Positions 5,060 to 46,255 of a stretch of DNA of 64,000 nucleotides are shown here, piece by piece; within the stretch, counting starts at the first letter, position 1, and every line of letters starts with the position of its first letter. This DNA comes from Streptomyces aquilus (GTDB lineage: Bacteria > Actinomycetota > Actinomycetes > Streptomycetales > Streptomycetaceae): assembly GCF_003955715.1 (NCBI RefSeq), contig NZ_CP034463.1, forward strand, positions 4,092,001 to 4,156,000, read 5' to 3'. The notes under the pieces were generated by a model, which saw only the letters and a list, made by a program, of their open reading frames with translations, was not told where the DNA came from and ran no database searches. The translations under genes were made by a program, and so were the position numbers.

Positions 5060-5077
5060 GATCGGCGCCTACCCCTC

Positions 5078-5402: not shown

Positions 5403-5426
5403 CCGCCACCTCCTGGAGTACCCGCC

Positions 5427-7646
5427 ATGTCCGGCACCACCGCCCCGATAGCTCCGCCCGCCGAGGTCGAACTCCTCATCGGCGGCATGACCTGCGCCTC
5501 CTGCGCCGCCCGCGTGGAGAAGAAGCTCAACCGGATGGACGGCGTGACCGCCACCGTCAACTACGCGACGGAGAAGGCGAAGGTCACCTACGCCGAGGGC
5601 GTCCAGGTCGCGGATCTCATCGCGACGGTGGTGAAGACGGGGTACACGGCCGAGGAGCCCGCGCCGGCGGCGGCAGCGCCCGCCCCGCACGAGGACCCGG
5701 AGCCGGCGTCGCTGCGGCAGCGGCTCGTCGTCTCCGCGCTCCTCGCCGTGCCCGTCGTCCTGCTGTCGATGATCCCGGCCCTCCAGTTCGACAACTGGCA
5801 GTGGCTGGCCCTCACCCTCGCCTCCCCCGTCGTCGTCTGGGGCGGGCTGCCCTTCCACAAAGCCGCCTGGACCAACCTCCGGCACGGCGCGGCCACCATG
5901 GACACCCTCGTCTCGCTGGGCACGCTGGCCGCGTACGGCTGGTCGCTGTGGGCGCTGTTCTTCGGGGACGCGGGCATGGCGGGCATGAAGGACGAGTTCA
6001 CGTTCACCGTCTCGCGCATGGACAGCGCCTCCACGATCTATCTCGAAGTGGCCGCGGGCGTCACCACGTTCCTCCTGCTCGGCCGCTATCTGGAGGCCCG
6101 CTCCAAGCGCCGGGCGGGGGCCGCGCTACGGGCCCTGATGGAGCTGGGCGCGAAGGACGTGGCGGTCCTGCGGGACGGCCGCGAGGTCCGCGTCCCGGTC
6201 TCCCGCCTGACGGTCGGGGACCGTTTCGTCGTCCGCCCCGGGGAGAAGATCGCCACCGACGGCACCGTCGTCGAGGGCGCCTCCGCCGTGGACGCGTCCA
6301 TGCTGACCGGCGAGTCGGTGCCGGTGGACGTGACGGTCGGGGACGCGGTCGCGGGCGCGACCGTGAACGCCGGCGGGCGCCTGGTCGTCAAGGCCACGCG
6401 CGTGGGCGCGGACACACAGCTCGCGCGGATGGCGAAGCTGGTCGAGGAGGCGCAGAACGGCAAGGCCGAGGTGCAGCGGCTCGCCGACCGGATCTCGGCC
6501 GTCTTCGTGCCGGCGGTCATCGCGATCGCCGTCGCCACCTTCGGCGGTTGGCTCGGCGCGACCGGCGACCTTGCCGCCGCGTTCACCGCGGCCGTCGCCG
6601 TCCTGATCATCGCCTGCCCGTGCGCGCTCGGCCTGGCCACCCCGACCGCCCTGATGGTCGGCACGGGCCGCGGCGCCCAGCTCGGCATCCTCATCAAGGG
6701 CCCCGAGGTGCTGGAGAACACGCGCCGCGTCGACACCGTCGTCCTCGACAAGACGGGAACGGTCACCACCGGCCGGATGACCCTCCAGGAGGTGTACGCC
6801 GTCCAGGGCGCCGACGAGAAGCAGGTGCTGCGGCTCGCGGGCGCCGTGGAGCACGCCTCCGAGCATCCCGTCGCCCGGGCGGTCGCCGCCGGTGCCGAGG
6901 AGCGGGTGGGGCCGCTGCCCGCGGTCGAGGCGTTCGTGAACGTCCCCGGGCGGGGCGTGCGCGGGCGCGTGGAGGGCCATGACGTGGCCGTGGGGCGCCT
7001 CTTCGACGCCTTGCCGGAGGAGCTGGCCCGCGCCAAGGACGAGGCCGAGAGGGGCGGTCGTACGGCCGTCGTGGTCGGCTGGGACGGCGTGGCACGCGGC
7101 GTCGTGGCCGTCGCGGACGCGGTGAAGGAGACCAGCGCCGAGGCGGTACGGGAGCTGCGGGCCCTCGGGCTCACGCCGGTGCTGCTGACCGGGGACAACC
7201 GGACGGTCGCGGAGGCCGTGGCCGAACGGGTCGGGATCACGCGGGTCGTGGCCGAGGTGCTGCCCGAGGGCAAGGTCGACGCCGTACGACGGTTGCAGGG
7301 CGAGGGACGGGTCGTCGCCATGGTCGGCGACGGGGTCAACGACGCCGCCGCACTCGCCACCGCCGACCTGGGGCTCGCGATGGGGACCGGGACGGACGCG
7401 GCGATCGAGGCGGGGGATCTGACGCTGGTGCGCGGGGACCTGCGGGTGGCCGCGGACGCCATCCGGCTGTCGCGGCGGACGCTGGCCACGATCAAGGGGA
7501 ACCTGGTGTGGGCGTTCGGCTACAACGTGGCCGCGCTGCCGCTGGCCGCCGCGGGACTGCTGAACCCGATGATCGCGGGCGCCGCCATGGCGTTCTCCTC
7601 GGTGTTCGTCGTGACGAACAGCCTGCGATTGCGGTCATTCCGTTAG
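5427..7646 (+). CDS. copA: Copper-translocating P1B-type ATPase CopA
   Basis: A 739-residue copper export ATPase of the inner membrane. It has one N-terminal HMA domain with GGMTCASC (CxxC), an actuator TGES motif in [12 protein letters not shown], the transmembrane copper site CPC (Cys397-Pro-Cys399), the phosphorylation motif DKTGT with Asp441, the P1B-specific His-Pro dipeptide in SEHPVARA, and the hinge [10 protein letters not shown]. All residues needed for Cu(I) transport are present. It follows copZ in the same transcription unit under the CsoR-type operator. An internal block rich in Met/Asp (residues about 180-195, [17 protein letters not shown]) lies in the extracellular loop before TM3. 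Confidence 0.95.
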
Positions 7647-8238: not shown

Positions 8239-9528
8239 TCAGCGCTCCTCGACCGGGACGAAGTCGCGCTCGACCACGCCGGTGTAGATCTGGCGCGGGC
8301 GGCCGATGCGGGAGCCCGGCTCCTTGATCATCTCGTGCCACTGGGCGATCCAGCCCGGGAGGCGGCCGAGGGCGAAGAGGACCGTGAACATCTCGGTCGG
8401 GAAGCCCATCGCGCGGTAGATGAGGCCGGTGTAGAAGTCGACGTTCGGGTAGAGGCTGCGCGAGACGAAGTAGTCGTCGGAGAGCGCGTGCTCCTCCAGC
8501 TTCAGCGCGATGTCCAGCAGCTCGTCGGACTTGCCGAGGGCCGAGAGGACGTCGTGCGCCGCCGCCTTGATGATCTTCGCGCGCGGGTCGAAGTTCTTGT
8601 AGACCCGGTGGCCGAAGCCCATCAGCCGGACGCCGTCCTCCTTGTTCTTCACCTTGCGGATGAAGGAGTCGACGTCACCGCCGGAGGCCTGGATGCCCTC
8701 CAGCATCTCCAGCACGGACTGGTTGGCGCCGCCGTGCAGCGGGCCCCACAGCGCGTTGATGCCGGCCGAGATGGACGCGAACATGTTCGCCTGGGAGGAG
8801 CCGACGAGGCGGACCGTGGAGGTCGAACAGTTCTGCTCGTGGTCGGCGTGCAGGATCAGCAGCTTGTCGAGCGCGGCGACGACGACCGGGTCGAGGTCGT
8901 ACTCCTGGGCCGGCACCGAGAAGGTCATCCGCAGGAAGTTCTCGACGTAGCCGAGGTCGTTGCGCGGGTAGACGAACGGGTGACCGATCGACTTCTTGTA
9001 CGCGTACGCCGCGATCGTCGGGAGCTTGGCGAGCAGACGGATCGTCGAGAGGTTGCGCTGCTTCTCGTCGAACGGGTTGTGGCTGTCCTGGTAGAACGTC
9101 GACAGCGCGGAGACGACCGACGACAGCATGGCCATCGGGTGCGCGTCACGCGGGAAGCCGCGGTAGAAGTTCTTGACGTCCTCGTGCAGCAGGGTGTGCT
9201 GCGTGATGTCGTTCTTGAACACGGTGAGCTCGTCGACCGTCGGCAGCTCGCCGTTGATCAGCAGGTACGCCACCTCCAGGAAGGTGGAGCGCTCGGCCAG
9301 CTGCTCGATCGGGTAGCCGCGGTAGCGGAGGATGCCCGCCTCGCCGTCGAGGTAGGTGATCGCCGATTTGTAGGCGGCCGTGTTGCCGTAGCCGCTGTCC
9401 AGCGTCACCAGACCGGTCTGGGCGCGGAGCTTGCCGATGTCGAAGCCCTTGTCGCCGACGGTGCTGTCGATCACCGGGTAGGTGTACTCGCCATCGCCGT
9501 ACCGCAGTACTACAGAGTTGTCGCTCAC
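8239..9528 (-). CDS. citA: Citrate synthase
   Basis: A 429-residue type I (hexameric-type) citrate synthase, condensing oxaloacetate and acetyl-CoA at the entry to the TCA cycle. Catalytic signatures are present: HGGANQSVLEML with the first active-site His, MGFGHRVYKNFDPRAK with the second His, and the C-terminal RAMGFPTEMFTVLFALGRLP with GWIAQWHEM. The GTG start at 9528 (VSDNSVVLRYGDGEYTYPV) is chosen because it follows GAGGGAA and matches the usual length; an ATG at 9645 would add 39 non-conserved residues. It is monocistronic, with its own terminator at 8178-8210 and a 19-bp palindrome about 110 bases upstream. Confidence 0.95.
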   Translation of the reverse strand: MSDNSVVLRYGDGEYTYPVIDSTVGDKGFDIGKLRAQTGLVTLDSGYGNTAAYKSAITYLDGEAGILRYRGYPIEQLAERSTFLEVAYLLINGELPTVDELTVFKNDITQHTLLHEDVKNFYRGFPRDAHPMAMLSSVVSALSTFYQDSHNPFDEKQRNLSTIRLLAKLPTIAAYAYKKSIGHPFVYPRNDLGYVENFLRMTFSVPAQEYDLDPVVVAALDKLLILHADHEQNCSTSTVRLVGSSQANMFASISAGINALWGPLHGGANQSVLEMLEGIQASGGDVDSFIRKVKNKEDGVRLMGFGHRVYKNFDPRAKIIKAAAHDVLSALGKSDELLDIALKLEEHALSDDYFVSRSLYPNVDFYTGLIYRAMGFPTEMFTVLFALGRLPGWIAQWHEMIKEPGSRIGRPRQIYTGVVERDFVPVEER

Positions 9529-9637
9529 GTCTTCCCTCACCCGACGTTGTGCCTCATCTTCGAGGTTGCCCTGACTGTCTCTACCATCCCCCATTCGGCG
9601 CAGGAGAGTGCACTGGGGGTCGACCATTGGGCCTATT

Positions 9638-9656
9638 GGCGGCACTCAGTGCCGCC
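9638..9656. promoter_or_regulatory. 19-bp perfect palindrome upstream of citA
   Basis: GGCGGCACT-C-AGTGCCGCC is a perfect 9-1-9 inverted repeat between the citA start (9528) and the recD2 stop (9679). It may be an operator for citA or a short terminator for recD2; no T run follows. Confidence 0.45.
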
Positions 9657-9678
9657 AACTTGCCCATCCTGCCCTCCC

Positions 9679-11979
9679 CTACCCGGTTCCGGAAGGGCTC
9701 TGTGACCTAGGTGACTCATTTGATCGATCATTTTTCGGGGCGAGCCTGAAGTCCAGGGCCGTGCAGCGCCGACCCGCCGAGACCGTGCGCACCGCCTGGC
9801 CTATCGCCTTGCGCGAACCGACCAGGACGACCAGCTTCTTGGCCCGGGTGACCGCCGTGTACAGCAGGTTCCGCTGGAGCATCATCCAGGCCCCGGTGGT
9901 GACCGGGATCACCACGGCCGGATATTCACTGCCCTGCGAGCGGTGAATGGTCACCGCGTACGCGTGGGCCAGCTCGTCCAGTTCGTCGAACTCGTACGGC
10001 ACCTCCTCGTCCTCGTCGGTCAGTACCGTCAGGCGCTGGTCGACCGGGTCGAGCGAGGTGACCACGCCCACGGTGCCGTTGAAGACACCGTTCTTGCCCT
10101 TCTCGTAATTGTTGCGAATCTGGGTGACCTTGTCGCCGACCCGGAAGACCCGGCCGCCGAACCGCTTCTCGGACACATCGGGCCGGCCGGGCGTGATGGC
10201 CTGCTGCAACAGGCCGTTGAGGTTGCCGGCGCCGGCGGGCCCGCGGTGCATGGGCGCGAGCACCTGGACGTCCCGGCGCGGGTCGAGCCCGAACTTGGCC
10301 GGAATCCGACGGGCCGCCACGTCCACCGTGAGCCGCCCCGCCTCCTCGGTGTCGTCCTCGACGAAGAGGAAGAAGTCCGTCATGCCGTCGGTGACGGGAT
10401 GCTGCCCGGCGTTGATCCGGTGCGCGTTGGTCACCACGCCGGACTGCTGGGCCTGGCGGAACACGCGCGTGAGGCGCACCGCGGGGATGGGGCTGCCGTC
10501 GGCGAGCAGGTCCCGGAGCACCTCGCCCGCGCCGACGGACGGCAGCTGGTCCACGTCCCCCACGAACAGCAGATGCGCCCCCGGCGGCACCGCCTTCACC
10601 AGCTTGTTGGCGAGCAGCAGGTCCAGCATGGAGGCCTCGTCCACCACCACCAGGTCGGCGTCGAGCGGGCGGTCCTTGTCGTAGGCCGCGTCACCGCCCG
10701 GCTTCAGCTCCAGGAGGCGGTGGACGGTGGAGGCCTCGGCGCCGGTGAGCTCGGCGAGGCGCTTGGCGGCGCGGCCGGTGGGGGCCGCCAGCACCACCCG
10801 GGCCTTCTTGGCGCGGGCCAGCTCCACGATCGAGCGGACCGTGAAGGACTTGCCGCAGCCGGGTCCGCCGGTCAGGACGGCGACCTTCTTGGTGAGCGCC
10901 AGCTTCACGGCGGCCTCCTGCTCGGGCGCCAGCTCGGCTCCCGTACGGCCCTTCAGCCAGGTCAGCGCCTTGTCCCAGGCCACGTCCCGGAAGCCCGGCA
11001 TCCGGTCCTCGTCGGTGCGCAGGAGACGCAGCAGCTGGGCGGCGAGGGAGAGTTCGGCGCGGTGGAAGGGGACCAGGTAGACGGCGGTGACTGGCTCGCC
11101 GTGCTCGCCTGGGACCTTCTCCCGGACGACGCCGGGTTCGCCGGTGTCCTCGTCCGGCTCGGCGAGTTCGGCGAGGCACTCGATGACCAGACCGGTGTCG
11201 ACCTGGAGCAGCTTCACCGCGTCGGCGATCAGCCGCTCCTCGGGGAGGTAGCAGTTTCCCTGGTCGGTGGCCTGCGACAGCGCGTACTGGAGGCCCGCCT
11301 TCACGCGCTCCGGGCTGTCGTGCGGGATGCCGACGGACTGGGCGATCTTGTCGGCGGTGAGGAAGCCGATGCCCCAGACGTCGGCGGCGAGGCGGTAGGG
11401 CTGGTTCTTGACGACGGAGATGGAGGCGTCGCCGTACTTCTTGTAGATCCGGACCGCGATCGACGTCGACACCTCGACGGTCTGGAGGAAGAGCATGACC
11501 TCCTTGATCGCCTTCTGCTCCTCCCACGCGTCGGCGATCTTCTTGGTCCGCTTCGGGCCGAGGCCCGGGACCTCGATGAGCCGCTTGGGCTCCTCCTCGA
11601 TGATGCGCAGGGTGTCCAGGCCGAAGTGCTGGGTGATGCGGTCGGCGAAGACCGGGCCGATGCCCTTGACCAGCCCGGAGCCGAGATAGCGGCGGATGCC
11701 CTGGACGGTGGCGGGCAGGACGGTCGTGTAGTTCTCCACGGTGAACTGCTTGCCGTACTGCGGGTGGGAACCCCAACGCCCCTCCATGCGCAGGGACTCG
11801 CCGACCTGGGCGCCGAGCAGCGCGCCGACGACCGTGAGGAGGTCGCCGCCGCCCCGGCCGGTGTCCACGCGCGCGACGGTGTAGCCGTTCTCCTCGTTGG
11901 CGTACGTGATGCGCTCCAGCACGCCTTCGAGGACGGCGAGTCGCCGCTCGCCCGTCGCGTTCCCCGCCTGTTGAGCCAT
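9679..11979 (-). CDS. recD2: RecD2-type ATP-dependent DNA helicase
   Basis: A 766-residue SF1B helicase of the RecD2 (RecD-like, RecBC-independent) family, a 5'-3' DNA helicase of repair and replication. The N-terminal region carries helix-hairpin-helix elements (GSGLVKGIGPVFADRI; VPGLGPKRTKKIADAW). The helicase core shows Walker A TGGPGCGKSFT at about residue 370, Walker B VVDEASMLD, GDVDQLPSVGAG, and the UvrD-like C-terminal motif VTIHRSQGSEYPAV with YTAVTRAKKLV. The C-terminal tail after about residue 745 is short and charged. ATG 11979 is the first Met. The gene is upstream of citA on the same strand but the palindrome and gap suggest separate units. Confidence 0.93.
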   Translation of the reverse strand: MAQQAGNATGERRLAVLEGVLERITYANEENGYTVARVDTGRGGGDLLTVVGALLGAQVGESLRMEGRWGSHPQYGKQFTVENYTTVLPATVQGIRRYLGSGLVKGIGPVFADRITQHFGLDTLRIIEEEPKRLIEVPGLGPKRTKKIADAWEEQKAIKEVMLFLQTVEVSTSIAVRIYKKYGDASISVVKNQPYRLAADVWGIGFLTADKIAQSVGIPHDSPERVKAGLQYALSQATDQGNCYLPEERLIADAVKLLQVDTGLVIECLAELAEPDEDTGEPGVVREKVPGEHGEPVTAVYLVPFHRAELSLAAQLLRLLRTDEDRMPGFRDVAWDKALTWLKGRTGAELAPEQEAAVKLALTKKVAVLTGGPGCGKSFTVRSIVELARAKKARVVLAAPTGRAAKRLAELTGAEASTVHRLLELKPGGDAAYDKDRPLDADLVVVDEASMLDLLLANKLVKAVPPGAHLLFVGDVDQLPSVGAGEVLRDLLADGSPIPAVRLTRVFRQAQQSGVVTNAHRINAGQHPVTDGMTDFFLFVEDDTEEAGRLTVDVAARRIPAKFGLDPRRDVQVLAPMHRGPAGAGNLNGLLQQAITPGRPDVSEKRFGGRVFRVGDKVTQIRNNYEKGKNGVFNGTVGVVTSLDPVDQRLTVLTDEDEEVPYEFDELDELAHAYAVTIHRSQGSEYPAVVIPVTTGAWMMLQRNLLYTAVTRAKKLVVLVGSRKAIGQAVRTVSAGRRCTALDFRLAPKNDRSNESPRSQSPSGTG

Positions 11980-36466: not shown

Positions 36467-37267
36467 ATGAAACTCGCGTTCTCCACTCTCGGTGTCCCCG
36501 GTCTCCCCGTCCCCGAGGTGCTGCGGCTGGCCACCGCGCACGGGTATCACGGGGTCGAGCTGCGCGCGCATCCCGAGGAGCCGGTGCATCCCGGGATCGG
36601 GGCGGAGCAACGGGCCGACGTCGTGAGCGAGTTCAAGGCCGCCGGGGTGGAGATCCTGAGCGTGGCCGGGTACGTGCGCGTGGCCGCGCCCGGGGACGAC
36701 GCGCCCGTGATCGAGGAGATCCGCGGGCTCCTCGACCTCGCCCGCGACCTGGGCGCCCCCTACATCCGCGTGTTCCCCGGCGCGGCCCACGGGCAGTCCC
36801 CCGAGGAGGCCGACGCCACGGCCGCCCGGCGGCTCGGCACGGCCGCGGAGTACGCCGCCGACCTCGGCGTACGGATTCTGCTGGAGACCCACGACTCGCA
36901 CCGCACCGGCGCCGACGCGATCCGCGTCCTGGGCCTGGTCGGCCACCGCAACGTCGGTTCGCTGTGGGACGTCATGCACACCTGGCTCGGCGGCGAGCAG
37001 CCGAGCGAGACCTACGCGGCGCTCTCCCCGTACCTCGGATACGTCCAGGTCAAGGACATCGCCTCGGCCGAGGACACCACCCCGCTGCGGCTCGGCGCCG
37101 GTGTCCTGCCGATCGCCGAGTGCGTCGAGATCCTCTCCCGGCACGGCTGGGACGGCTGGCTGTGCTGGGAGTACGAGAAGCGCTGGTACGAGGGGGCCGC
37201 GCCGCTTCCGGGGCTGCTCGGGCGGGGGCGCGAGCACCTGGCGCGCCTTCTGAACGACAGCGCGTGA
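36467..37267 (+). CDS. Sugar phosphate isomerase/epimerase
   Basis: A 266-residue xylose-isomerase-like TIM barrel, starting MKLAFSTLGVPGLPVPEVLR. Ligand motifs: RILLETHDSHRTG (Glu), GSLWDVMHTWLGGE (Asp, His), GYVQVKDIA and WLCWEYEKRWYEG (Glu). It is a third member of this fold in the window, with low similarity to the one at 27177. It lies 18 bases after the MarR-GNAT gene and may be co-transcribed. The substrate is unknown. Confidence 0.87.
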   Translation: MKLAFSTLGVPGLPVPEVLRLATAHGYHGVELRAHPEEPVHPGIGAEQRADVVSEFKAAGVEILSVAGYVRVAAPGDDAPVIEEIRGLLDLARDLGAPYIRVFPGAAHGQSPEEADATAARRLGTAAEYAADLGVRILLETHDSHRTGADAIRVLGLVGHRNVGSLWDVMHTWLGGEQPSETYAALSPYLGYVQVKDIASAEDTTPLRLGAGVLPIAECVEILSRHGWDGWLCWEYEKRWYEGAAPLPGLLGRGREHLARLLNDSA

Positions 37268-37331
37268 CTAATTCGGTGGCCCGGGGGGCCGTCGCCGGAT
37301 AACGTCCCGGGGTGCATCAGCCCACCCCGCC

Positions 37332-37355
37332 CCCGCTCCCGCTCCCGCTCCCGCT
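37332..37355 (+). repeat. Hexamer (CCCGCT)4 just before the MFS start codon
   Basis: Four exact CCCGCT units end three bases before ATG 37359, filling the position where a ribosome binding site should be. The region contains no purine-rich Shine-Dalgarno. Confidence 0.85.
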
Positions 37356-37358
37356 CTC

Positions 37359-38624
37359 ATGAGCCTGTCCGACGCGCTGCTCGACGTACGGCCCCTGCGC
37401 ACCTCCCCCGTCTTCCGGCGGCTGCTCTTCGGGCGCACGGTCTCCGTGCTCGGCAGCTTCATGACCATGGTCACCGTCCTGTACCAGGTGTGGGACATGA
37501 CCCACAGCGCGTTCTGGAGCGGCGCGGTCGGGGTCGCGCAGGCGGTGCCGATGGTCGGCGTCAGCCTGTTCGCGGGCGCCTGGGCCGACCGCGTCGACCG
37601 CCGCCGGCTGTATCTGACCGGCACCGTGGGCTCGGCGGTGTGCTCCGTGCTGCTGGCCGTGCAGGGCTTCGCCGGGCATGCGCCGGTGGCCGTCGTGCTC
37701 GTCCTGGTCGCGGTCCAGACGTCGTTCGCCGCGCTCGGCGCCCCCGCGGCCGGGGTGTTCGTGCCGCGGCTGCTGCCCAAGGACCAGGTGGCCGCCGGCC
37801 TCGCCCTCCAGCAGGTCAGCGGCCAGGCGATGATGCTGGTCGGCCCGGCCGTCGCCGGTCTCGTCCTCGGCTGGTGGGGGATCGGCGTCTGCTACCTCCT
37901 GGACGCCCTGAGCTTCGCCCTGTCCTTCTACGGCGCCTACGGCCTGCCCGCGCTGCCGCCCGAGGGCGCCAAGTCCCGCCCCGGGATCCACGGGGTGCTG
38001 GACGGCCTGCGCTTCCTGGTCGGCCACCGGGTGGTGCGCGGCGCCCTGGTCACCGACCTGGCGGCCACCCTGCTGTCCATGCCGACCAGCCTCTTCCCGC
38101 TGGTCAACGAGGAACGCTTCGGCGGCGACCCCCGCACCCTCGGGCTGTTCCTGTCCGCGCTGGCCGTCGGCGGAGTCGCCGCGACCGCCTTCTCCGGCCC
38201 GGTGACCCGGCTGGCCCGCCCCGGCCCGGTGATGCTGTGCGCGTCCGCCTGCTGGGGCGTCGGCCTCTTCCTCTTCGGACTGACGACCAGCGCCTGGCTG
38301 GGCCTCGGTCTGCTCACGCTGGCCGGTGCGGCGGACGCCCTCGCCGTCCTCTCCCGTACGACCATCGTCCAGACCCGCACCCCCGACGCCCTGCTGGGCC
38401 GGGTCACGGCGGCCGAGACGATCGTCGGCCAGGCGGGCCCCCACCTGGGCAACCTCCGCGGCGGCCTGGTCGCGGGCTGGAGCTCCGGAGCGACCGCGCT
38501 GATCGCCGGCGGGCTGATGTGCCTGGCGGCGGTGACGGCGGTCGGTGTCACCACACCGGAGCTGCGCGCGGCCGGTGCCGCCGCCCCCGGGGAGCCCCCG
38601 GCCACCGCGCCTACCGGACCCTGA
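37359..38624 (+). CDS. MFS transporter (DHA3/EntS-like)
   Basis: A 421-residue major facilitator with about 12 membrane segments, resembling the EntS/multidrug DHA3 group. The start MSLSDALLDVRPLRTSPVFR is the usual family N-terminus. Signatures: FAGAWADRVDRRRLYLTGTV in loop 2-3, then LGAPAAGVFVPRLLPKDQVA and a late TPDALLGRVTAAETIVGQAG. A likely exporter of a small molecule. Translation has no Shine-Dalgarno because a CCCGCT hexamer repeat occupies that region. Its stop codon lies inside the 29-bp repeat array at 38610-38725. Confidence 0.85.
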   Translation: MSLSDALLDVRPLRTSPVFRRLLFGRTVSVLGSFMTMVTVLYQVWDMTHSAFWSGAVGVAQAVPMVGVSLFAGAWADRVDRRRLYLTGTVGSAVCSVLLAVQGFAGHAPVAVVLVLVAVQTSFAALGAPAAGVFVPRLLPKDQVAAGLALQQVSGQAMMLVGPAVAGLVLGWWGIGVCYLLDALSFALSFYGAYGLPALPPEGAKSRPGIHGVLDGLRFLVGHRVVRGALVTDLAATLLSMPTSLFPLVNEERFGGDPRTLGLFLSALAVGGVAATAFSGPVTRLARPGPVMLCASACWGVGLFLFGLTTSAWLGLGLLTLAGAADALAVLSRTTIVQTRTPDALLGRVTAAETIVGQAGPHLGNLRGGLVAGWSSGATALIAGGLMCLAAVTAVGVTTPELRAAGAAAPGEPPATAPTGP

Positions 38625-38725
38625 ACTCGGCCACCGCACCTCCCGGGCCCTGAACTCGGCCACCGGGCCTACCGGCTCCTGAACTCGGCCTCCGGGCCTA
38701 CCGGCTCCTGAACTCGGCCTCCGGG
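38610..38725. repeat. Four tandem 29-bp units at a convergent gene junction
   Basis: Units start at 38610, 38639, 38668 and 38697; copies 3 and 4 are identical. Each carries CCTGAACTCGGCC. On the plus strand TGA in unit 1 ends the MFS gene; on the minus strand TAG (CTA) in unit 4 ends the alpha/beta hydrolase gene. As 29 is not a multiple of three, each copy offers a stop in a different frame. Confidence 0.85.
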
Positions 38726-39261
38726 TCCAGGCACCACTCCAGCACCGACGGCCAGGAGCCGTACCCGGCGTCCAGATCCAGGTGGGCGGCGCCGGGGAGG
38801 AGCCGGGTGGGGATGCCCAGCGGGTCGCCGTAGGCGGCCTGCGCGCCACCTGGGCAGTACGGGTCGTCGTCGCCCGCCACCAGCAGCGTCGGCCCCGGGA
38901 GGGTGAAGTCCAGGGGTGGCGCGGTGAATTCGACGACCTCGGGATACCGGGCCAGGACCGGGGCGGACGGCGGCGCCACCAGCAGCACCCGCTCCACGTC
39001 CCCGACCCCGGGCGTCCCCCGCGCCACCGCGTGCAGCCACAGCACGGCGGAGGCGCTGTGGGCGACCACGACATCCGGCGCCTCCGCGAGATACCGGGCC
39101 AGCTCGGTCAGCCACACCTCCAGCGAGGGGTCGTCCGGATCGGGCAGCTGCGGGTAGGTGACCTGGTGGCCGAGCTCGGTGAGGCGGTCGGCGAGCCAGT
39201 GCTGCCAGTGGTCGGCGGGGCGGTGGTTCTGCCAGCCGTGGAGGATGAGGTAGGCGGTCAT
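38698..39261 (-). CDS. Alpha/beta hydrolase (RBBP9/YdeN family)
   Basis: A 187-residue small serine hydrolase. The opening MTAYLILHGWQNHRPADHWQ carries the HG-W motif of this family. The nucleophile is in VVVAHSASAVLWLHAVA (HSxS in place of GxSxG, usual here). The acid and base come later in LLVAGDDDPYCPGG (Asp) and LPGAAHLDLDAGYGSW (His). It acts as a cytosolic esterase of unknown substrate. Its last codons (EAEFRSR) are encoded by the 29-bp repeat array. It is divergent from a LysR gene, 51 bases away. Confidence 0.88.
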   Translation of the reverse strand: MTAYLILHGWQNHRPADHWQHWLADRLTELGHQVTYPQLPDPDDPSLEVWLTELARYLAEAPDVVVAHSASAVLWLHAVARGTPGVGDVERVLLVAPPSAPVLARYPEVVEFTAPPLDFTLPGPTLLVAGDDDPYCPGGAQAAYGDPLGIPTRLLPGAAHLDLDAGYGSWPSVLEWCLDPEAEFRSR

Positions 39262-39267
39262 GACCCT

Positions 39268-39281
39268 GATCGTTTCCGATC
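39268..39281. promoter_or_regulatory. Inverted repeat GATCG-TTTC-CGATC
   Basis: A perfect 5-4-5 palindrome in the 51-bp gap between the hydrolase and LysR starts; a likely regulator-binding element for the divergent pair. Confidence 0.5.
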
Positions 39282-39312
39282 CTCTCTCCCCCGGTCCAGT
39301 TAATCTTTCTCG

Positions 39313-40254
39313 ATGGAACAGGTAAGCGAGACCTTCACCGTCGATCTGCGCCGCCTGACCGTCCTGCGGGAACTCCAGCGCCGGGGCAGTCTCGCCCGTA
39401 CCGCCGAGGCCCTCCACCTCACCCCGTCCGCCGTCTCCCAGCAGATCGCCGCGCTGGCCCGGGAGGTGGGCGCGCCCCTCACCGAACGGGACGGCCGGGG
39501 CGTACGGCTCACCGGCCAGGCCCGGGTCCTGCTGGCGCACGCCGATCTGATCGCCGCCCAACTGGAGCGCGCCCGCGCCGACTTGGCGGCGTACGGGGAG
39601 GGCGGGCGCGGCTCGGTGACGGTCGGCTGCTTCTCCAGCGGCATCCTGGGGCTGCTGCCGGGGGCCCTGCGGGGGCTGGGGGCGCGGCTGCCGCACGTCC
39701 GTGTGGACGTCGTCGAGTCCGAGCCGCCGGATCTGTTCACCGCGCTGGACGGAGGGCAGGTGGACCTCGCGGTGGCGGTGGACTTCGCCGCGGGGCCGCC
39801 GCACACCGACCGCCGCTACAGCCGCGTCGACCTGCTCACCGACGTCATGGACCTGGTGGTGCCGGAAGGCCACCGGCTGGCGGGGCGGGACGGGGACGTC
39901 CCCCTGCGCGAACTGGCCGCCGACGCCTGGATCGTGGGCCATCCGCGCAGCTGTGTGGGGGCGGTGGCGCGTTCGGTGTGCGCGACGGCCGGCTTCACGC
40001 CCGACATCCGGCACGCCGTGAACGACTGGGCGGCGGTGGCGGCGCTCGTCGAGGCGGGGGCCGGGGTGGCGTTGATCCCGCGCCTGGTACGGCCGTTGTA
40101 CGAGGGCCGGCGGCTCGCGGTGCTGCGGACCGAGGGCGAGCCGCCGTCCCGGAACGTGTTCGCGGCGGTGCGGACGGGGTCGGAGGACGACCCGGTGCTG
40201 GCCGCCGTACGGGAGGAACTGCGGCGTGCGGCGGAGGAGTTGACGGGACGGTGA
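39313..40254 (+). CDS. LysR family transcriptional regulator
   Basis: A 313-residue LysR regulator. The helix-turn-helix is RLTVLRELQRRGSLARTAEA with LHLTPSAVSQQIAALAREVG; the effector domain starts near residue 95 (GRGSVTVGCFSSGILGLLPG) and shows the normal two-lobe pattern to the end. It is divergent from the alpha/beta hydrolase gene, which is its probable target, and convergent (10-bp gap) with the GNAT gene. Its effector is unknown. Confidence 0.88.
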   Translation: MEQVSETFTVDLRRLTVLRELQRRGSLARTAEALHLTPSAVSQQIAALAREVGAPLTERDGRGVRLTGQARVLLAHADLIAAQLERARADLAAYGEGGRGSVTVGCFSSGILGLLPGALRGLGARLPHVRVDVVESEPPDLFTALDGGQVDLAVAVDFAAGPPHTDRRYSRVDLLTDVMDLVVPEGHRLAGRDGDVPLRELAADAWIVGHPRSCVGAVARSVCATAGFTPDIRHAVNDWAAVAALVEAGAGVALIPRLVRPLYEGRRLAVLRTEGEPPSRNVFAAVRTGSEDDPVLAAVREELRRAAEELTGR

Positions 40255-40264
40255 CGGGCCCGGC

Positions 40265-40900
40265 TCAGCTCGCCCGGCGGGCCGCGAACCGCGCCACCCG
40301 CGCCTCCAGGGCCGGCCGGATCCGCGGCCATTCCTCCGCCGTGACGGAGAAGATCGCGGAGTCGCGCAGCCGGCCGTCCTCGCCCGGTGCCCAGGAGCGC
40401 GACCAGTTGCGCAGGACGCCCTCGAAGCGGGCGCCGACGCTCGCGATCGCCGCGTGGGAGCGGGCGTTGCGGGCGTCGGTCTTGAGGTCGACGCGGGCGA
40501 CGCCCCACTCCTCGAAGGCGTGCCGGAACAGCAGGTACTTGGACTCGGCGTTCACGCCGGTGCCCTGCGCGGACCTCGCCAGCCAGCTGAAGCCGATCTC
40601 GATGGCGTCGAGGCGGTCCGGCGACCGCCAACTGCGCGGCTCCCAGTAGGAGGTGGTGCCGACGACGTGCCCGGTCGCCGTCGAGATCTGGGCGTACGGG
40701 GCGAGCTTGCCGTCCGCGGCCCGGCCGAGCTGGGCGTCGATGTACCCGGCGACCTCGTGGGCGCGCGGCACCCAGGTGAACGCGAAGGTGTCGCGGTCCT
40801 CCTCGGCCGCCGCGGCGAGACCGGGCGCGTGCCGGTGCTCCAGCGGTTCCAGGCGCACCAGCCCGCCCTCCAGGAGCGGTCCCTCCAGCTTGAAGCTCAA
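40265..40900 (-). CDS. GNAT acetyltransferase (RimJ-like), TTG start
   Basis: A 211-residue GNAT. Family features: [40 protein letters not shown], the CoA loop region [20 protein letters not shown] and [20 protein letters not shown] ending [15 protein letters not shown]. It resembles RimJ/RimL-type N-acetyltransferases that can also act on small amines. The TTG at 40900 overlaps the aroA stop (TTGA), so expression depends on translation of aroA. It is the last gene of an exporter-aroA-GNAT operon. The substrate is not known. Confidence 0.83.
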
Positions 40901-42144
40901 TGCCCGATGTCCCTTCGCAGTGCGGCGAACGCCTCGTGGAAACCGGGGAAAGTCTTCCGCACGCATCCGGGGTCGTCGAACGAAATACCGGGCACCCGCA
41001 GCCCGGTGACCGCGAAGGACATCACGATGCGGTGGTCGCCGTACGTCTTGATCTCGGCGCCCGCGGTCGCCGGGTCCAGCCCCGGCCGGATCTCGATCCA
41101 GTCCGGGCCCACCGCCACCTCCACCCCCAGCCTCCGCAGGTTCTCCGCGCAGGCCTCCAGGCGGTCGCACTCCTTGACCCGGGTGTTCGCCACGTCCTCG
41201 ATACGGACGGGGCCGTCGGCGAAGGGGGCGAGGGCCGCGAGGGTCGGCATGGTGTCCGAGATGTCCCGCATGGTGACGGTGAGGCCGCGCAGTCGGCCGG
41301 TGCCGCGGACGGTCGCGCCCTCCGGCGTCACCGACACGTCGGCGCCCATCCGGCGCAGGACGTCCACGAAGCCCAGGTCCCCCTGGAGGGCGCCCGTCCC
41401 GAGGCCGGGGACGGTGACCTCGGCGCCGGGGGTGACGGCCGCCGCGGCGAAGAAGTAGCTGGAGGTGGAGGCGTCCGGCTCGATCGCGTACGTGGTGGCC
41501 CGGTAGCCGCCCGGCGGGACGACGAAGACGTTCCCCTCCCGGGCGACCTCGACGCCGAACGCCCGCATCATCGCGATCGTGATCTCCACGTACGGCACGG
41601 AGACCAGGTCGGTCACGCGGATCCGCAGCCCGCGCCGGGTCAGCGGACCCAGCAGCAGCAGTGCCGTCAGGTACTGGGACGACTGACCGGCGTCCAGCAC
41701 CACCTCGCCGCCCTCGACGCCGGACGCCCGGACGGTCAGCGGGTGGTGGCCCTCGGCCTCCTCGTGGCGCAGGTCCACGCCCAGGTCGCGCAGGGCGCGC
41801 GAGAGCGGCAGCAGGGGGCGGCGGCGCATCTGGGCGGAGGCGTCGAAGCGGTAGGTGCCGTGGCCGGCCGCGGCCAGCGTCGGCAGGAAGCGTGCGGTCG
41901 TCGCGCCGTCCCGGCAGTAGACGTCGGCCTCCGCCACGGCGGGCCCCTCGGGCCGGCCGTCGACCTGCCAGCTCTCCGGCGTCCGCCCGACGCGGTACCC
42001 GAGCCGGCTCAGCCCCTCGGCGAACCCCTCCGTGTCGTCGGAGCGGAGGGGCCGTACGAGCGTCGTGACACCGTCGGCCGCCGCCGCCAGGAACAGGGCG
42101 CGGGCGGTGATGGACTTGGAACCGGGGATGGCGACTGCGGGCAT
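40897..42144 (-). CDS. aroA: EPSP synthase paralogue (3-phosphoshikimate 1-carboxyvinyltransferase)
   Basis: A 415-residue EPSP synthase-like enzyme joining shikimate-3-phosphate and phosphoenolpyruvate. Catalytic residues are retained: Lys10-Ser11 and Arg15 in PGSKSITAR, Thr82 and Arg85 in DGATTARFL, Arg109 in MRRRP, the SSQ motif in [11 protein letters not shown], Asp in [23 protein letters not shown] and the late Lys in [13 protein letters not shown]. The position equal to E. coli Gly96 is Ala81, the change that characterises glyphosate-insensitive enzymes. Start [10 protein letters not shown] gives a very short N-terminus. It lies four bases after the EamA exporter and is coupled to a GNAT. 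Probably a second, specialised AroA rather than the housekeeping copy. Confidence 0.87.
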
Positions 42145-42148
42145 GCCG

Positions 42149-43060
42149 TCATGATCGGACGCGGACGGTTTCCGGCGCCGGGGCGTCCAGCGGGTGGACC
42201 GCCGGCCGCCGCACCGTCACCGACGCGAGCGCCACCCCGCCCACCAGCAGCGCCGCCGCGCACCACCGCAGACCGCTCACGCTCTCCCCCAGGAACAGGG
42301 CCGCCGAGGACATGCCGAAGACCGGGACCAGGAGGGAGAAGGGGGCGACCGTGGATGCCGGGTGGTGGCGGAGGAGCCAACCCCAGGCCCCGAAGCCGAG
42401 GACCGTCGTGACCCAGGCGACGTAGACGACCGTGCCGGCGCCCTGCCAGTCGAGGGCGCGCAGCGCGTCGTAGTCCCGCGTCGGCCCCTCGGTCAGGAGG
42501 GAGAGGGCGAGGAGGGGCAGGACCGGGACCGTGCTCACCCACACCATGAAGTTCAGCGCGTCCGGGGGTGCCGCCTTGCGGGTGAGGACGTTGGAAGCTC
42601 CCCAGCAGGCCGCCGCCGCGACGCACAGGGCGAAGGCGCCGAGGGGGCCGGACGTGCCCTCGTCGACGGCCGCGACGCCGATGCCCGCCAGCGCCACCGC
42701 CATGCCCAACGCACGTACTCCGGACGGCTGTTCGCCCAGGACCGCGAACGCGATCACCGCCGTGAACACCGCCTGGATCTGGAGCACCAGGGAGGACAGT
42801 CCGGCCGGCATCCCCGCGTCCATCGCGACGAACAGCAGGCCGAACTTCGCGACCCCCAGCACCAGGCCCACCGCCACGATCCACTTCCACGCCACCTTCG
42901 GGCGGCCCACGAAGAACACCGCGGGCAGGGCCGCCGCCAGGAAGCGCAGGGCGGAGAAGAGCAGCGGCGGGAAGTGGTCGAGGCCGATCTCGATGACGGT
43001 GAAGTTCACGCCCCAGACGGCGGCGACGAGGACGGCGAGGGCGATGTGGGCGGGACGCAT
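42149..43060 (-). CDS. EamA family metabolite exporter
   Basis: A 303-residue ten-helix DMT/EamA transporter (MRPAHIALAVLVAAVWGVNF; FPPLLFSALRFLAAALPAVF; GLSSLVLQIQAVFTAVIAFA; STVAPFSLLVPVFGMSSAAL). The group includes exporters of O-acetylserine, amino acids and aromatic compounds. It is the first gene of an operon with aroA (4-bp gap) and the GNAT gene, opposite to a LysR regulator. I start it at ATG 43060; an in-frame ATG at 43087 inside the divergent regulatory region is the alternative. Confidence 0.85.
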   Translation of the reverse strand: MRPAHIALAVLVAAVWGVNFTVIEIGLDHFPPLLFSALRFLAAALPAVFFVGRPKVAWKWIVAVGLVLGVAKFGLLFVAMDAGMPAGLSSLVLQIQAVFTAVIAFAVLGEQPSGVRALGMAVALAGIGVAAVDEGTSGPLGAFALCVAAAACWGASNVLTRKAAPPDALNFMVWVSTVPVLPLLALSLLTEGPTRDYDALRALDWQGAGTVVYVAWVTTVLGFGAWGWLLRHHPASTVAPFSLLVPVFGMSSAALFLGESVSGLRWCAAALLVGGVALASVTVRRPAVHPLDAPAPETVRVRS

Positions 43061-43087
43061 GCGTCGAGGATCACCCGCGGCGACCAT

Positions 43088-43110
43088 GTAGCACCAGCGA
43101 TGATTGCTGC
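43088..43110. promoter_or_regulatory. LysR-type box GTAGCA-N11-TGCTGC
   Basis: Arms GTAGCA (43088-43093) and TGCTGC (43105-43110) are inverted (five of six pairs) around 11 bases, the spacing of LysR recognition sites. It lies between the divergent EamA-aroA-GNAT operon and lysR. Confidence 0.6.
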
Positions 43111-43150
43111 ATGGTTGGATGAAGCGACGCTAACGATTGGGAGCCGGGAG

Positions 43151-44068
43151 ATGCTCGACCTGCAACGCCTCCGCGCCCTGCACGCCGTCTCCGTCCACGG
43201 CACCGTCGGCGCGGCCGCCGCCGCGCTCGGCTACACGCCCTCCGCCGTGTCCCAGCAGATCGCCAAGCTGGAGCGGGAGACCCGGACCGTGCTCCTCGAG
43301 CGGGAGGGGCGTGGGGTGCGGCTCACCGCTGAGGCGCTGCAACTCGTCGACACCGCAGAGGAGTTGCTCGCCATCGTCGAGCGCGCCGAGACCGGTATCG
43401 AGCAGCGGCGCAACACCCCGGCGGGGCGGCTGACGGTGGCCGCGTTCGCGTCGGCGGCGCGCGGGCTGCTGCCGGGCGTGCTGGCCGACCTCGCCCAGCG
43501 GCACCCCGCCCTCGACGTCCGGCTCTCCGAGATCGACCCGCATCTGTCGGTGGGGCTGGTGGCGCGGGGCGCGCTGGACATGGCCGTCGTGCACGACTGG
43601 GACATCTCGCCGCTGCCGGTGCCGCCCGGGGTGGAGCAGGCGGTGATCGGCGAGGACCGGTGCACGCTGCTCGTGCCCGAGGGGCACGCCTTCGCCGGGC
43701 GGGCGAAGGTGCGGCGCGAGGACCTCGGCGGGGAGCGGTGGGTGTGCCAGCCGCCGGGCCGGGTCTGCCACGACTGGCTGGTACGCACCCTGCGAAGCGC
43801 CGGGCACGAGCCGGAGATCATCCACCAGGCCGACGAGAACCCCACCCTCGTCGCGCTCGTCGCCGCCGGACTCGGCATCTGCCTCATCCCCCGCCTCGGC
43901 CGCGGCCCGCTGCCGGCCGGCGTCGTCGAGGTCGACCTCGACCCCACCCCGGTACGACGCCTGTACGCCCTGTGGCGCACGGGCGCGGCGGGCCGCCCGT
44001 CGATCACGGAGACGGTACGCACCCTCCAGAACCACTGGCCCAAGACCGCGTCCACCCCACCCCGCTGA
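43151..44068 (+). CDS. LysR family transcriptional regulator
   Basis: A 305-residue LysR regulator. Helix-turn-helix: LQRLRALHAVSVHGTVGAAA with LGYTPSAVSQQIAKLERETR; effector domain from about residue 95 (GRLTVAAFASAARGLLPGVL). ATG 43151 has GGGAG seven bases upstream. It is divergent from the EamA-aroA-GNAT operon with a LysR-type box between, making it the presumed regulator of that operon. Confidence 0.88.
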   Translation: MLDLQRLRALHAVSVHGTVGAAAAALGYTPSAVSQQIAKLERETRTVLLEREGRGVRLTAEALQLVDTAEELLAIVERAETGIEQRRNTPAGRLTVAAFASAARGLLPGVLADLAQRHPALDVRLSEIDPHLSVGLVARGALDMAVVHDWDISPLPVPPGVEQAVIGEDRCTLLVPEGHAFAGRAKVRREDLGGERWVCQPPGRVCHDWLVRTLRSAGHEPEIIHQADENPTLVALVAAGLGICLIPRLGRGPLPAGVVEVDLDPTPVRRLYALWRTGAAGRPSITETVRTLQNHWPKTASTPPR

Positions 44069-44318
44069 ACAAGCCGGGCCGCCCCGGCGCCCCCGCCGAG
44101 CCACCCCGACCGCCCCACCGGCCCCGGTGAACCGCCCCACCCACCCCGCCCGCCCCTCGCCCCCCGACTTCCGGGATTCGGGCCCCGCCCGGGAACCCCG
44201 TTCCGCCCCCGCTCGTCCAACCCGCGAGCTGTCGGAGAGTCACCGCGGTGCGGTGTCGGCCTCGCTGCTGGCTGCGAACGCTGACCTACCCTCTCCTCCG
44301 TACTGCGGCCGGCAGCAC

Positions 44319-44360
44319 GCCGCCATCGGCGCGCCCCCCTCCAACAGCGCCGATGGCGGC
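44319..44360 (+). terminator. Perfect 14-bp hairpin
   Basis: GCCGCCATCGGCGC (44319-44332) and GCGCCGATGGCGGC (44347-44360) pair perfectly with a 14-nt loop. It is 250 bases after the lysR stop and 30 bases before the GH3 promoter, so it would insulate the latter. Confidence 0.65.
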
Positions 44361-44388
44361 CCCTCCATGTCGTACGGTGCGCACTCCC

Positions 44389-44435
44389 TTGACTGGCAGA
44401 AACTTCCCGGATACCTCTGTCTTCTCGGAAGTTTC
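44389..44435 (+). promoter_or_regulatory. GH3 promoter region with operator-like inverted repeat
   Basis: TTGACT (44389-44394) is a good -35; an A/T-containing GATACCT 16-17 bases later could be the -10. GAAACTTCC (44399-44407) and GGAAGTTTC (44427-44435) are perfect 9-bp inverted arms around 19 bases that span the -10 and start site, a clear candidate operator. Confidence 0.55.
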
Positions 44436-44467
44436 CTTCAGCGGATCACCTCCGGAAGGAGCGCACG

Positions 44468-46255
44468 TTGCCCTCCAGACGTACCGTCCTCGCCGCCGGC
44501 GCGGGCGTCACCGCGGCCCTGGCGTTCGGCACCGACGCCCGGGCCGCCGGCCACGACGACAAGAAGCTCCGTTCCCTCATCTCCCGTATGACCCTTGAGG
44601 AGAAGGTCGGCCAGCTCTTCGTGATGCGGGTCTACGGCCACTCCGCCACCGCCCCCGACCAGGCCGACATCGACGCCAACCTCAAGGAGATCGGCGTCCG
44701 CAGCGCCGCCGAGCTGATCGCCAAGTACCGCGTGGGCGGCATCATCTACTTCACCTGGGCGCACAACACCCGCGACCCGCACCAGATCGCCGACCTCTCC
44801 AACGGCATCCAGAAGGCGTCCCTCAGCAGGCCGCGCGGCCTGCCCGTCCTGATCTCCACCGACCAGGAGCACGGCATCGTCTGCCGGGTCGGCGAGCCCG
44901 CCACGCTCTTCCCGGGCGCGATGGCCATCGGCGCGGGCGGCTCACGCAAGGACGCCCGCACCCTCGGCCGTGTCGCGGGGCAGGAGTTGCGGGCTCTCGG
45001 CATCCGGCAGAACTACTCCCCCGTCGCCGACGTCAACGTCAACCCCGCCAACCCGGTCATCGGCGTCCGCTCCTTCGGAGCCGACCCGCACGCGGTGGCC
45101 GGACTCGTCGCCGCCGAGGTCAGCGGGTACCAGCACGGCCGTCAGGTCGCCGCCACCGCCAAGCACTTCCCCGGGCACGGCGACACCGCCGTCGACAGCC
45201 ACTACGGCTTCCCGGTCATCACCCACACCCGCGAGCAGTGGGAGGAGCTGGACGCCCCGCCGTTCCGGGCCGCGATCGCCGCCGGCATCGACTCGATCAT
45301 GACCGCCCACCTGATGGTCCCGGCCCTCGACGACTCCGGCGACCCGGCGACCCTGTCCCGCCCGATCCTGCACGGCATCCTGCGCGAGGAGTTCGGCTAC
45401 GAGGGGGTGATCGTCACCGACTCCCTCGGCATGGAGGGCGTGCGCACGAAGTACGGCGACGACCGCGTCCCCGTGCTCGCCCTGAAGGCCGGGGTGGACC
45501 AGCTCCTCAACCCGCCGAATCTGGACGTCGCCTGGAACGCCGTGCTGAACGCCGTGCGGGGCGGCGAGCTGACCGAGGCGCGGCTCGACGAGTCGATCCT
45601 GCGGGTGCTGCGGCTGAAGGCGAAACTGGGGCTGTTCGAGAAGCCGTACGTCAGCCAGGCCGGTGTCAGCCGTACCGTCGGCGCCCCCGCCCACCTCGCG
45701 GCGGCCGACCGCGTCGCCGAGCGGACGACGACCCTGCTGGTCAACAAGGGCGGCCTGCTGCCCCTGTCCCCGCGCGCACTCCTGGTGTGCGGCGCCGATC
45801 CGGCCTCCCCGTCCGGCACCACCGGCCCGCCCACCGGGGTCCTCGCGACCGCGTTCACCGAGCTCGGCTTCACGGCCACCGCCCTGTCCACGGGCACGGC
45901 ACCCTCCGCCGCCACCGTCGCCAAGGCGGTCGCGGCGGCGCAGAACGCGGACGCGGTCGTCGTGGGGACGTACAACCTGAACGCCGCGCAGAAGACGCTG
46001 GTCGAGCAGTTGCTGGCGACGGGGAAACCGGTGGTGGCGATCGCGATCCGCAATCCGTACGACGTGGCCCAACTGCCCGGCGTCCCGGCCTACCTGGCGG
46101 CGTACTCCTGGACCGACGTCGAACTGCGGGCCGCCGCGCGGGTGATCGCGGGCGCGGCGGCGCCGCGCGGGAAGCTGCCGGTGCCGGTGCAGAAGGCCGA
46201 CGATCCGGCACAGGTGCTGTATCCGATCGGCCACGGGCTCTCGTATCCGACGTAG
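44468..46255 (+). CDS. Secreted glycoside hydrolase family 3 (beta-N-acetylhexosaminidase type)
   Basis: A 595-residue GH3 enzyme. The N-terminus MPSRRTVLAAGAGVTAALAF is a twin-arginine-like signal. The catalytic barrel shows GLPVLISTDQEHGIVCRVGE, the NagZ-type KHFPGHGDTAVDSH (His/Asp acid-base dyad) and the nucleophile Asp in VIVTDSLGMEGVRTKYGDD. A C-terminal alpha/beta sandwich follows (ERTTTLLVNKGGLLPLSPRA to the end). It would release GlcNAc from chitin or peptidoglycan fragments outside the cell. Translation starts at TTG 44468 with GGAAGGAG upstream. The promoter carries a palindrome that suggests induction by a sugar-responsive regulator. Confidence 0.87.
   Translation: MPSRRTVLAAGAGVTAALAFGTDARAAGHDDKKLRSLISRMTLEEKVGQLFVMRVYGHSATAPDQADIDANLKEIGVRSAAELIAKYRVGGIIYFTWAHNTRDPHQIADLSNGIQKASLSRPRGLPVLISTDQEHGIVCRVGEPATLFPGAMAIGAGGSRKDARTLGRVAGQELRALGIRQNYSPVADVNVNPANPVIGVRSFGADPHAVAGLVAAEVSGYQHGRQVAATAKHFPGHGDTAVDSHYGFPVITHTREQWEELDAPPFRAAIAAGIDSIMTAHLMVPALDDSGDPATLSRPILHGILREEFGYEGVIVTDSLGMEGVRTKYGDDRVPVLALKAGVDQLLNPPNLDVAWNAVLNAVRGGELTEARLDESILRVLRLKAKLGLFEKPYVSQAGVSRTVGAPAHLAAADRVAERTTTLLVNKGGLLPLSPRALLVCGADPASPSGTTGPPTGVLATAFTELGFTATALSTGTAPSAATVAKAVAAAQNADAVVVGTYNLNAAQKTLVEQLLATGKPVVAIAIRNPYDVAQLPGVPAYLAAYSWTDVELRAAARVIAGAAAPRGKLPVPVQKADDPAQVLYPIGHGLSYPT

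Follow-up and report, generated by a model that had tools for sequence, protein, structure and literature searches.

Why should a second EPSP (5-enolpyruvylshikimate-3-phosphate) synthase gene lie between an exporter gene and an acetyltransferase gene? A 64,000-nucleotide stretch of Streptomyces aquilus DNA (hereafter the window; it spans 4.09-4.16 Mb on the single 10.39 Mb contig of the genome) encodes, in one run, an EamA-family exporter, a paralogue of the EPSP synthase AroA and a GNAT-family acetyltransferase, with a LysR-family regulator gene divergent from them. The original prediction, made from this DNA alone, took efflux, insensitive target and acetylation together for a self-resistance set. 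We favor another answer, to which we give a probability of roughly three in four: the aroA paralogue would encode a working accessory EPSP synthase of class IV, intrinsically insensitive to glyphosate, beside a Gly-type AroA encoded elsewhere in the genome, and the exporter would not be part of its function. The EamA and GNAT genes look like neighbors of circumstance, and the trio like a local arrangement rather than a resistance set.

Class IV kinship and the alanine at the Gly96 position

Against TIGR01356, the equivalog model for aroA, the window's AroA scores 397.2 bits, above the cut-off of 287.25, as expected of an EPSP synthase. PDB entry 7m0o is the Streptomyces sviceus EPSP synthase, attributed to Griffin et al. 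2021 in the accessible part of PMC8983318. AroA matches it at 813.5 bits, with 372 of 409 aligned residues identical (91%), while scores are about 238-243 bits against E. coli EPSP synthase entries and about 107-109 bits against the CP4 entries 2gg4, 2ggd, 2pqb and 2pqd. In this comparison, which covered classes I, II and IV, AroA is closest to the S. sviceus enzyme and nearer to class I than to class II. By sequence kinship, then, it is a class IV EPSP synthase, a kind of enzyme already known. PMC12554703, which cites Griffin 2021, places DGT-28 EPSPS in class IV, set apart as a clade of its own with class I as the nearest, and reports that it gives glyphosate tolerance in maize; the class IV reference is given as S. 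davawensis in the portion of PMC9145961 consulted. The trees discussed below did not include 7m0o. Given the shared Griffin 2021 citation, DGT-28 and 7m0o are presumably the same protein.

Alignment places residues N94-A95-G96-T97 of the E. coli enzyme on D79-G80-A81-T82 of AroA, and so bears out the earlier claim that Ala81 stands at the position of Gly96, as is expected of class IV. The switch is paired, Ala-Gly to Gly-Ala, and the loop differs from E. coli at three of the four positions N94-T97 and again at A98 (T83) and P101 (F86). The assertion that all catalytic residues are kept thus holds at the positions checked outside the loop and fails within it. Those positions were chosen with the E. 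coli enzyme as the guide; residues kept, in E. coli numbering, are Lys22, Ser23, Arg27, Arg124, Ser169-Gln171, Ser197, Tyr200, Asp313, Asn336, Lys340, Glu341, Arg344, His385, Arg386 and Lys411. The set used as a residue test for EPSP synthase (Lys22, Arg27, Asp313, Lys340, Glu341 and Lys411), is present in full. Glyphosate insensitivity of this AroA is proposed on the grounds of Ala81 and of kinship, because Ala81 would narrow the glyphosate site next to phosphoenolpyruvate (PEP). In the CP4 enzyme, Ala100 equals Gly96, and changing it to Gly restores sensitivity, according to the accessible text of PMC8983318. The description of the gene as an insensitive-type paralogue can be retained, in the sense of a second EPSP synthase with the Ala linked to glyphosate insensitivity, such enzymes being known as class IV.

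A residue survey covered 136 distinct EPSP synthases, left after 19 duplicates and three short matches had been removed from the sequences fetched. Ala occupies the Gly96 position in all 115 distinct class IV sequences (at least 61% identity to AroA), versus Gly in all 21 others, 13 of them at 50-60% identity and eight below 50%; the E. coli enzyme and the other AroA of the window genome are among the eight. The boundary between the groups, at 60.5%, was set after seeing the data and falls between L194/L200 (60.0%, Gly) and L206 (61.4%, Ala); L and G numbers are our handles for loci and genomes. This consistent division is what is new here, the enzyme class itself being already known.

The window genome has five matches to PF00275, but only two of them reach E<=1e-10 against AroA: the window gene itself and L001. 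The window's aroA is therefore not the sole copy, a point on which the original prediction had staked itself: L001 is a Gly-type AroA elsewhere in the genome. Another PF00275 gene, L005 (G000:C1:10243767-10244993; 94.4 bits), is MurA-like by eye and lies about 150 kb from the contig end, beside a gene that is metallophosphoesterase-like by eye. Among 150 Streptomyces genomes, 54 carry class IV aroA at 72-100% identity, and a fragment in G016 brings the count to 55. All 54 carry one or more additional AroA-type matches at E<=1e-10; a role as sole aroA was rejected for class IV, which is never the only match in these genomes among the matches listed. Exactly one match is found in 75 of the 90 genomes that have neither class IV nor a group at 54-56% identity. 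In a larger set of 392 Streptomyces genomes, 150, over a third, have a class IV match at E below 1e-140. Of 393 genomes drawn from the class Actinomycetes, 17 have class IV at 77% or more, and all of these are Streptomyces. The named loci used below are the best 80 of 397 relatives encoding an AroA relative, and all 80 are from Streptomyces save one titled only Actinobacteria bacterium. In G061 (C141:514097-515624) class IV aroA was found as two overlapping pieces, and for that reason is probably broken; this genome has a further AroA match.

Linkage of exporter, EPSP synthase and acetyltransferase

The layout first described for the locus, with LysR divergent from EamA-AroA-GNAT, is all readable in the sequence (Table 1). 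EamA and AroA are separated by 4 bp (42145-42148), and the TGA stop of AroA overlaps the GNAT start as TTGA at 40900-40897, so that GNAT would use a TTG start. Later starts are more likely for the two divergent genes, 43060 rather than 43087 for EamA and 43151 rather than 43100 for LysR, since the upstream start codons fall inside a block conserved as non-coding sequence.

Table 1. Coordinates of features in the window, with the basis of each assignment
Feature	Position	Strand	Basis
GNAT acetyltransferase, Acetyltransf_3 type	40265..40900	-	PF13302; probable TTG start overlapping AroA stop
AroA paralogue, class IV EPSP synthase (predicted)	40897..42144	-	TIGR01356, PF00275, 7m0o match, residue map
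DGATTARF loop, residues 79-86, with Ala81	41887..41910	-	derived from AroA start at 42144
EamA-family exporter, 303 aa	42149..43060	-	PF00892
LysR-family regulator divergent from EamA	43151..44068 (alternative start 43100)	+	PF00126, PF03466
Conserved EamA/LysR intergenic block	43082..43133	.	footprint over 47 EamA loci; contains box 43088-43110
Second LysR gene, convergent with GNAT	39313..40254	+	PF00126/PF03466; variable neighbor, presence varies
Glycoside hydrolase family 3 (GH3) gene, conserved site border	44468..46255	+	PF00933
TIM-barrel isomerase-like gene, conserved site border	36467..37267	+	PF01261

If the three genes formed a functional set, they should travel together. Orthologs were called at E<=1e-80 for EamA and E<=1e-50 for GNAT, and adjacency of EamA in genomes was taken as within 250 bp. 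EamA orthologs occur in 71 of the 150 Streptomyces genomes and GNAT orthologs in 34. EamA is independent of class IV aroA (24 of 55 genomes with it, 47 of 95 without; Fisher p 0.50), and adjoins it in six genomes (G000, G122, G104, G092, G060 and G023). GNAT is associated with class IV (25/55 versus 9/95; p about 1e-6, kinship being ignored). The contiguous trio occurs in just four of the 55 class IV genomes (G000, G122, G104 and G060). At the level of loci, configurations were counted in 73 of the 80 named loci, seven having been set aside for a short flank: the trio is present in 11, EamA is adjacent in 16, and neither gene is found in 26. The search for conservation of the trio thus went against it, its components not being conserved together.

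The site itself suggests how the genes came to be neighbors. Window-type loci mostly have a GH3 gene on one side (in 74 of the 80 named loci) and a TIM-barrel isomerase gene on the other (in 64 of 80, counted in 5-kb flanks only). Between these same borders (36467-46255 in the window) the EamA, LysR, aroA, GNAT, second LysR, alpha/beta-hydrolase-like and MFS transporter genes come and go. Fourteen fetched genomes have EamA but no class IV match (L137-L150), and in 11 of them (L137, L140-L149) a LysR-EamA pair lies beside the same GH3 gene; L138 has EamA and GH3 without the first LysR gene, and L139 and L150 are short contigs. GNAT follows EamA, with no aroA between, in L138, L139, L142 and L144. 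Class IV aroA has a second home, between an acyl-CoA dehydrogenase gene and dxr, with no EamA or GNAT beside it (L101-L106, L175, L210), and further homes exist, since L206, L207, L208 and L211 show no marker genes. G040 carries both, class IV at the dxr site (L101) and LysR-EamA at the GH3 site (L176). We infer that aroA came to a site already holding LysR-EamA, although it is uncertain which way the gene moved.

The spacer between EamA and LysR goes with that pair of genes. The box GTAGCA-N11-TGCTGC noted earlier is present and is no mere chance occurrence, for it lies within a longer conserved block extending over about the interval given in Table 1. The region is conserved in all 47 aligned EamA loci, the window's included, with and without aroA. 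A 37-base core (10 or fewer substitutions allowed) was found in all 17 named loci with EamA and in none of the 63 without. Most of CGCTGGTGCT and GCTTCATCCAACCATG is kept in distant loci where the GCAGCA half of the box changes; that half (the box being GTAGCA-N11-TGCTGC on the other strand) is less constant, reading GAAGAA or GCAGAG there. The block is probably the LysR operator and promoter region, and by this distribution the box belongs to the LysR-EamA pair and not to aroA. LysR control of aroA as such was rejected on the absence of the core from the 63 named loci without EamA. In L018 the first LysR gene persists (93%) without EamA, and the DNA upstream of its aroA showed no box.

GNAT scored above the cut-off of none of the NCBIfam models. 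The best NCBIfam model for EamA is the O-acetylserine/cysteine exporter (NF008523), at 213.7 bits with the cut-off of 472 not reached. Export of aromatics by EamA was rejected as well, the YddG model giving 21.3 bits, and the alternative first offered for the locus, a specialized shikimate-type step with export of its product, finds no support among the neighboring genes. No structured RNA scored above threshold at 36-48 kb, and anti-phage models gave no match for EamA or GNAT. Median dN/dS (ratio of nonsynonymous to synonymous substitution rates), from a simple counting method applied to loci at 70% identity or more, was 0.164 for AroA (80 loci), 0.188 for EamA (17), 0.242 for LysR (18) and 0.331 for GNAT (48). 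All four genes look to be under purifying selection; their ranking is rough because the locus sets differ.

That the strain makes an EPSP synthase-directed or phosphonate-like compound against which exporter, insensitive target and acetyltransferase protect it is, in our judgment, very improbable. An insensitive-type second target in one gene run with an exporter and a GNAT is what such a system would show, the insensitivity being predicted. However, annotation of 35.5-46.3 kb reveals no biosynthetic cluster; in a genome search the nearest ketosynthase match lies about 0.7 Mb from aroA, and no strong condensation domain was found near the locus, where a weak condensation-like frame (58 bits) lies about 50 kb off, outside the window. 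No linked cluster was found, then, in a screen that covered ketosynthase, condensation domain, PEP mutase and local genes, other cluster types not being screened. Nor was a PEP mutase found in the genome (best score 45.9 bits against a cut-off of 319.55, and no match at E<=1e-55 to a PEP-mutase-like gene of genome G013), which counts against the proposed phosphonate-like metabolite in this strain. The independence of EamA, the mere four contiguous trios and the finding of LysR-EamA beside the same GH3 gene where class IV aroA is lacking count against the self-resistance set as a whole, which is not supported.

Across 392 genomes a phosphonate link was likewise rejected: PEP-mutase-like genes occur in nine of 150 class IV genomes and in 22 of 242 others (Fisher p 0.34). 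G013 is the only one of the nine in which a single contig carries both genes no more than 20 kb apart; G633 has them 1.9 Mb apart, also on a single contig, and in the other seven they are on different contigs. What G013 offers in favor of self-resistance is a phosphonate-type run that starts about 2.4 kb from class IV aroA, with the PEP-mutase-like gene about 7 kb away.

Two such neighborhoods deserve description in their own right. At L165 (G013:C285:10337-29593; 1064-6626 and 8998-10266) the phosphonate-type run is followed by a phospholipase-C-like gene and then class IV aroA. The run comprises a PEP-mutase-like gene (297 bits, below cut-off), phosphonopyruvate-decarboxylase-like halves, and CDP-alcohol-transferase-like, asparagine-synthase-like and nucleotidyltransferase-like genes. 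At L207 (G546:C1:11658653-11675864), about 345 kb from the contig end, a class IV aroA (69%, Ala kept) has as neighbors an acetolactate-synthase-like enzyme, a glutamate-semialdehyde-type aminotransferase, a hydantoinase/caprolactamase-like gene and a GntR-like regulator. The runs beside class IV aroA in G013 and G546 remain leads.

History of class IV and its biosynthetic relatives

With 36% identity to the Gly-type AroA of the same genome, the window's aroA is, by this divergence, not a recent copy of the housekeeping gene but a separate lineage. A quick tree of 107 rows, built without L206-L211 and without L012, L033, L050 and L076 of the 80 named loci, joins GH3-site and dxr-site sequences in one clade with SH-aLRT (Shimodaira-Hasegawa-like approximate likelihood ratio test) support of 100; L194, and then the biosynthetic-cluster group, fall outside. 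In that tree the GH3-site label was applied to all window-type loci, though six of 80 had no GH3 match, and L077, with 305 bases upstream, was counted as lacking EamA. GH3-site genes form one clade in the trees, with SH-aLRT support of 100 in the quick one. On the AroA tree the presence of EamA changes 13 times and GNAT adjacency 19 times. A more careful tree of 41 rows, with L206-L211 included, groups the Ala rows with L194 firmly (100/96), next to a firm clade (100/99) from biosynthetic clusters.

The adjoining clade raises the question of whether class IV supplies precursors. At nine of ten loci of this type (L087-L096, from blastp clusters), all but L091, the EPSP synthase gene has near it at least one of class II DAHP (3-deoxy-D-arabino-heptulosonate 7-phosphate) synthase, transketolase and chorismate synthase; Pfam searches on the proteins of L087-L089 named these genes, plus an ADIC (2-amino-2-deoxyisochorismate)-synthase-like enzyme and an isochorismatase domain. 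At L201, chorismate synthase occurs together with the ADIC-synthase-like enzyme. Class IV could share its origin with these enzymes, as the tree allows and as the size and the biosynthetic setting of the neighboring clade (50-53% tblastn identity) would favor, and could still serve aromatic specialized metabolism, with Ala81 a structural by-product that owes nothing to selection by an inhibitor. We regard this as possible but doubtful. At the GH3 and dxr sites class IV has no such neighbors among the annotated genes, the closest Gly-type row, L194/L200, has no such genes among its five annotated neighbors, and the Ala is kept without exception in the survey.

A more distant group, near 40% identity, has an EPSP synthase paralogue followed by an enzyme resembling cofactor-independent phosphoglycerate mutase (iPGM), with binding-protein-dependent transport genes nearby (L097-L100, from blastp clusters, with Pfam on L097); L202 has the same pair with a thiamine diphosphate enzyme. 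The chemistry of L097-L100 and L202 is possibly arseno-organic or phosphonate-like, and the L097-L100 type is presumably an arseno-organic cluster. Expansion of 3-phosphoshikimate-1-carboxyvinyltransferase, with that of two other families, led to arsenolipid enzymes, according to the accessible part of PMC6939163.

Proposed role and comparison with known systems

Several observations weigh against a merely circumstantial trio or a simple history of class IV. EamA and AroA, where both are present, lie close together (6-8 bp apart by tblastn in 10 of 17 loci), and several lineages keep this arrangement. AroA and GNAT genes are adjacent (within 500 bp) in 40 of the 73 named loci with full flanks, which together with their excess co-occurrence may reflect a real AroA-GNAT pairing. 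In that event EamA alone would be incidental, and GNAT would acetylate a small molecule or a protein tied to the shikimate step. We consider this unlikely: GNAT is not directly beside class IV aroA in 22 of 34 GNAT genomes (about 1.5 kb off in two of these), it follows EamA without aroA in the four loci named above, it is absent beside aroA from the seven dxr-site loci looked at, and its median dN/dS is the higher one. In the careful tree the Ala rows lie on one side of a branch whose support is only 69/18, recovered in 64% of bootstrap trees; that Ala arose a single time is the simplest account, though unproven, and it has weak support when the most divergent sequence is among the rows. In both trees the dxr-site rows fall outside the GH3-site clade; they may yet form a single clade of their own, and may be basal or a sister clade, so that the direction of the aroA move is uncertain.

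The reading we prefer, an accessory class IV enzyme in a shared site, may be put together as follows. AroA would be a second isozyme, presumably active and glyphosate-insensitive, tolerance being in print for a close relative, and its gene would be kept as an extra in about a third of Streptomyces. In the window's lineage aroA would have come to sit directly behind the EamA gene of a LysR-EamA pair, in the variable site between the GH3 and TIM-barrel isomerase genes, where aroA, EamA and GNAT probably share one transcript; the exporter would take no part in AroA function and the LysR-EamA pair would be unrelated to it. The most likely role would be that of a reserve or extra-capacity EPSP synthase, sustaining aromatic synthesis when the Gly-type enzyme is limiting or blocked.

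A bolder variant makes class IV a natural target-insensitivity trait. The Ala-Gly to Gly-Ala switch would have been fixed before glyphosate, once or a few times, owing to a natural soil inhibitor acting at the PEP site of EPSP synthase, and the spare enzyme would move among sites as a resistance gene does, sometimes being caught beside candidate producer clusters (G013, G546). We hold this to be improbable on present evidence. Literature searches returned no paper on this trio, nor on the native role of class IV EPSP synthases in Streptomyces; a class IV enzyme has been assessed for glyphosate-tolerant maize, in the accessible text of PMC12554703. Because a spare isozyme of the insensitive type occurs in 150 of 392 Streptomyces genomes, and because the Ala is invariant in the 115 distinct class IV sequences, the question of a natural EPSP synthase inhibitor can be tested by simple gene deletion. 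The locus also carries a caution: an exporter beside a spare target should not be read as a self-resistance set if all that unites the genes is a common variable site on the chromosome.

Among known systems, the EamA protein has as its nearest NCBIfam model the O-acetylserine/cysteine exporter, E. coli EamA (YdeD), yet scores under that model's cut-off. L001, the Gly-type AroA of the same genome, is of the same family as the window's enzyme but has the loop NAGTVMRF with Gly, and His, Glu, His and His at E. coli positions Tyr200, Asp313, Asn336 and Lys340. The EPSP synthases of chorismate-related clusters (L087-L096, L201) are the nearest large group of relatives and form one clade next to class IV; they differ in a loop DAGTAARF or DAGTAGRF with Gly, and in being mostly embedded in biosynthetic clusters. 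Class II EPSP synthase, represented by Agrobacterium CP4, likewise has Ala at the Gly96 position (Ala100; PMC8983318, accessible part), but is more distant from AroA in sequence than the E. coli entries are. The closest counterpart is the S. sviceus class IV enzyme 7m0o, in which the DGATTARF loop is identical and from which, over the 409 residues aligned, no weighty difference in the protein was seen.

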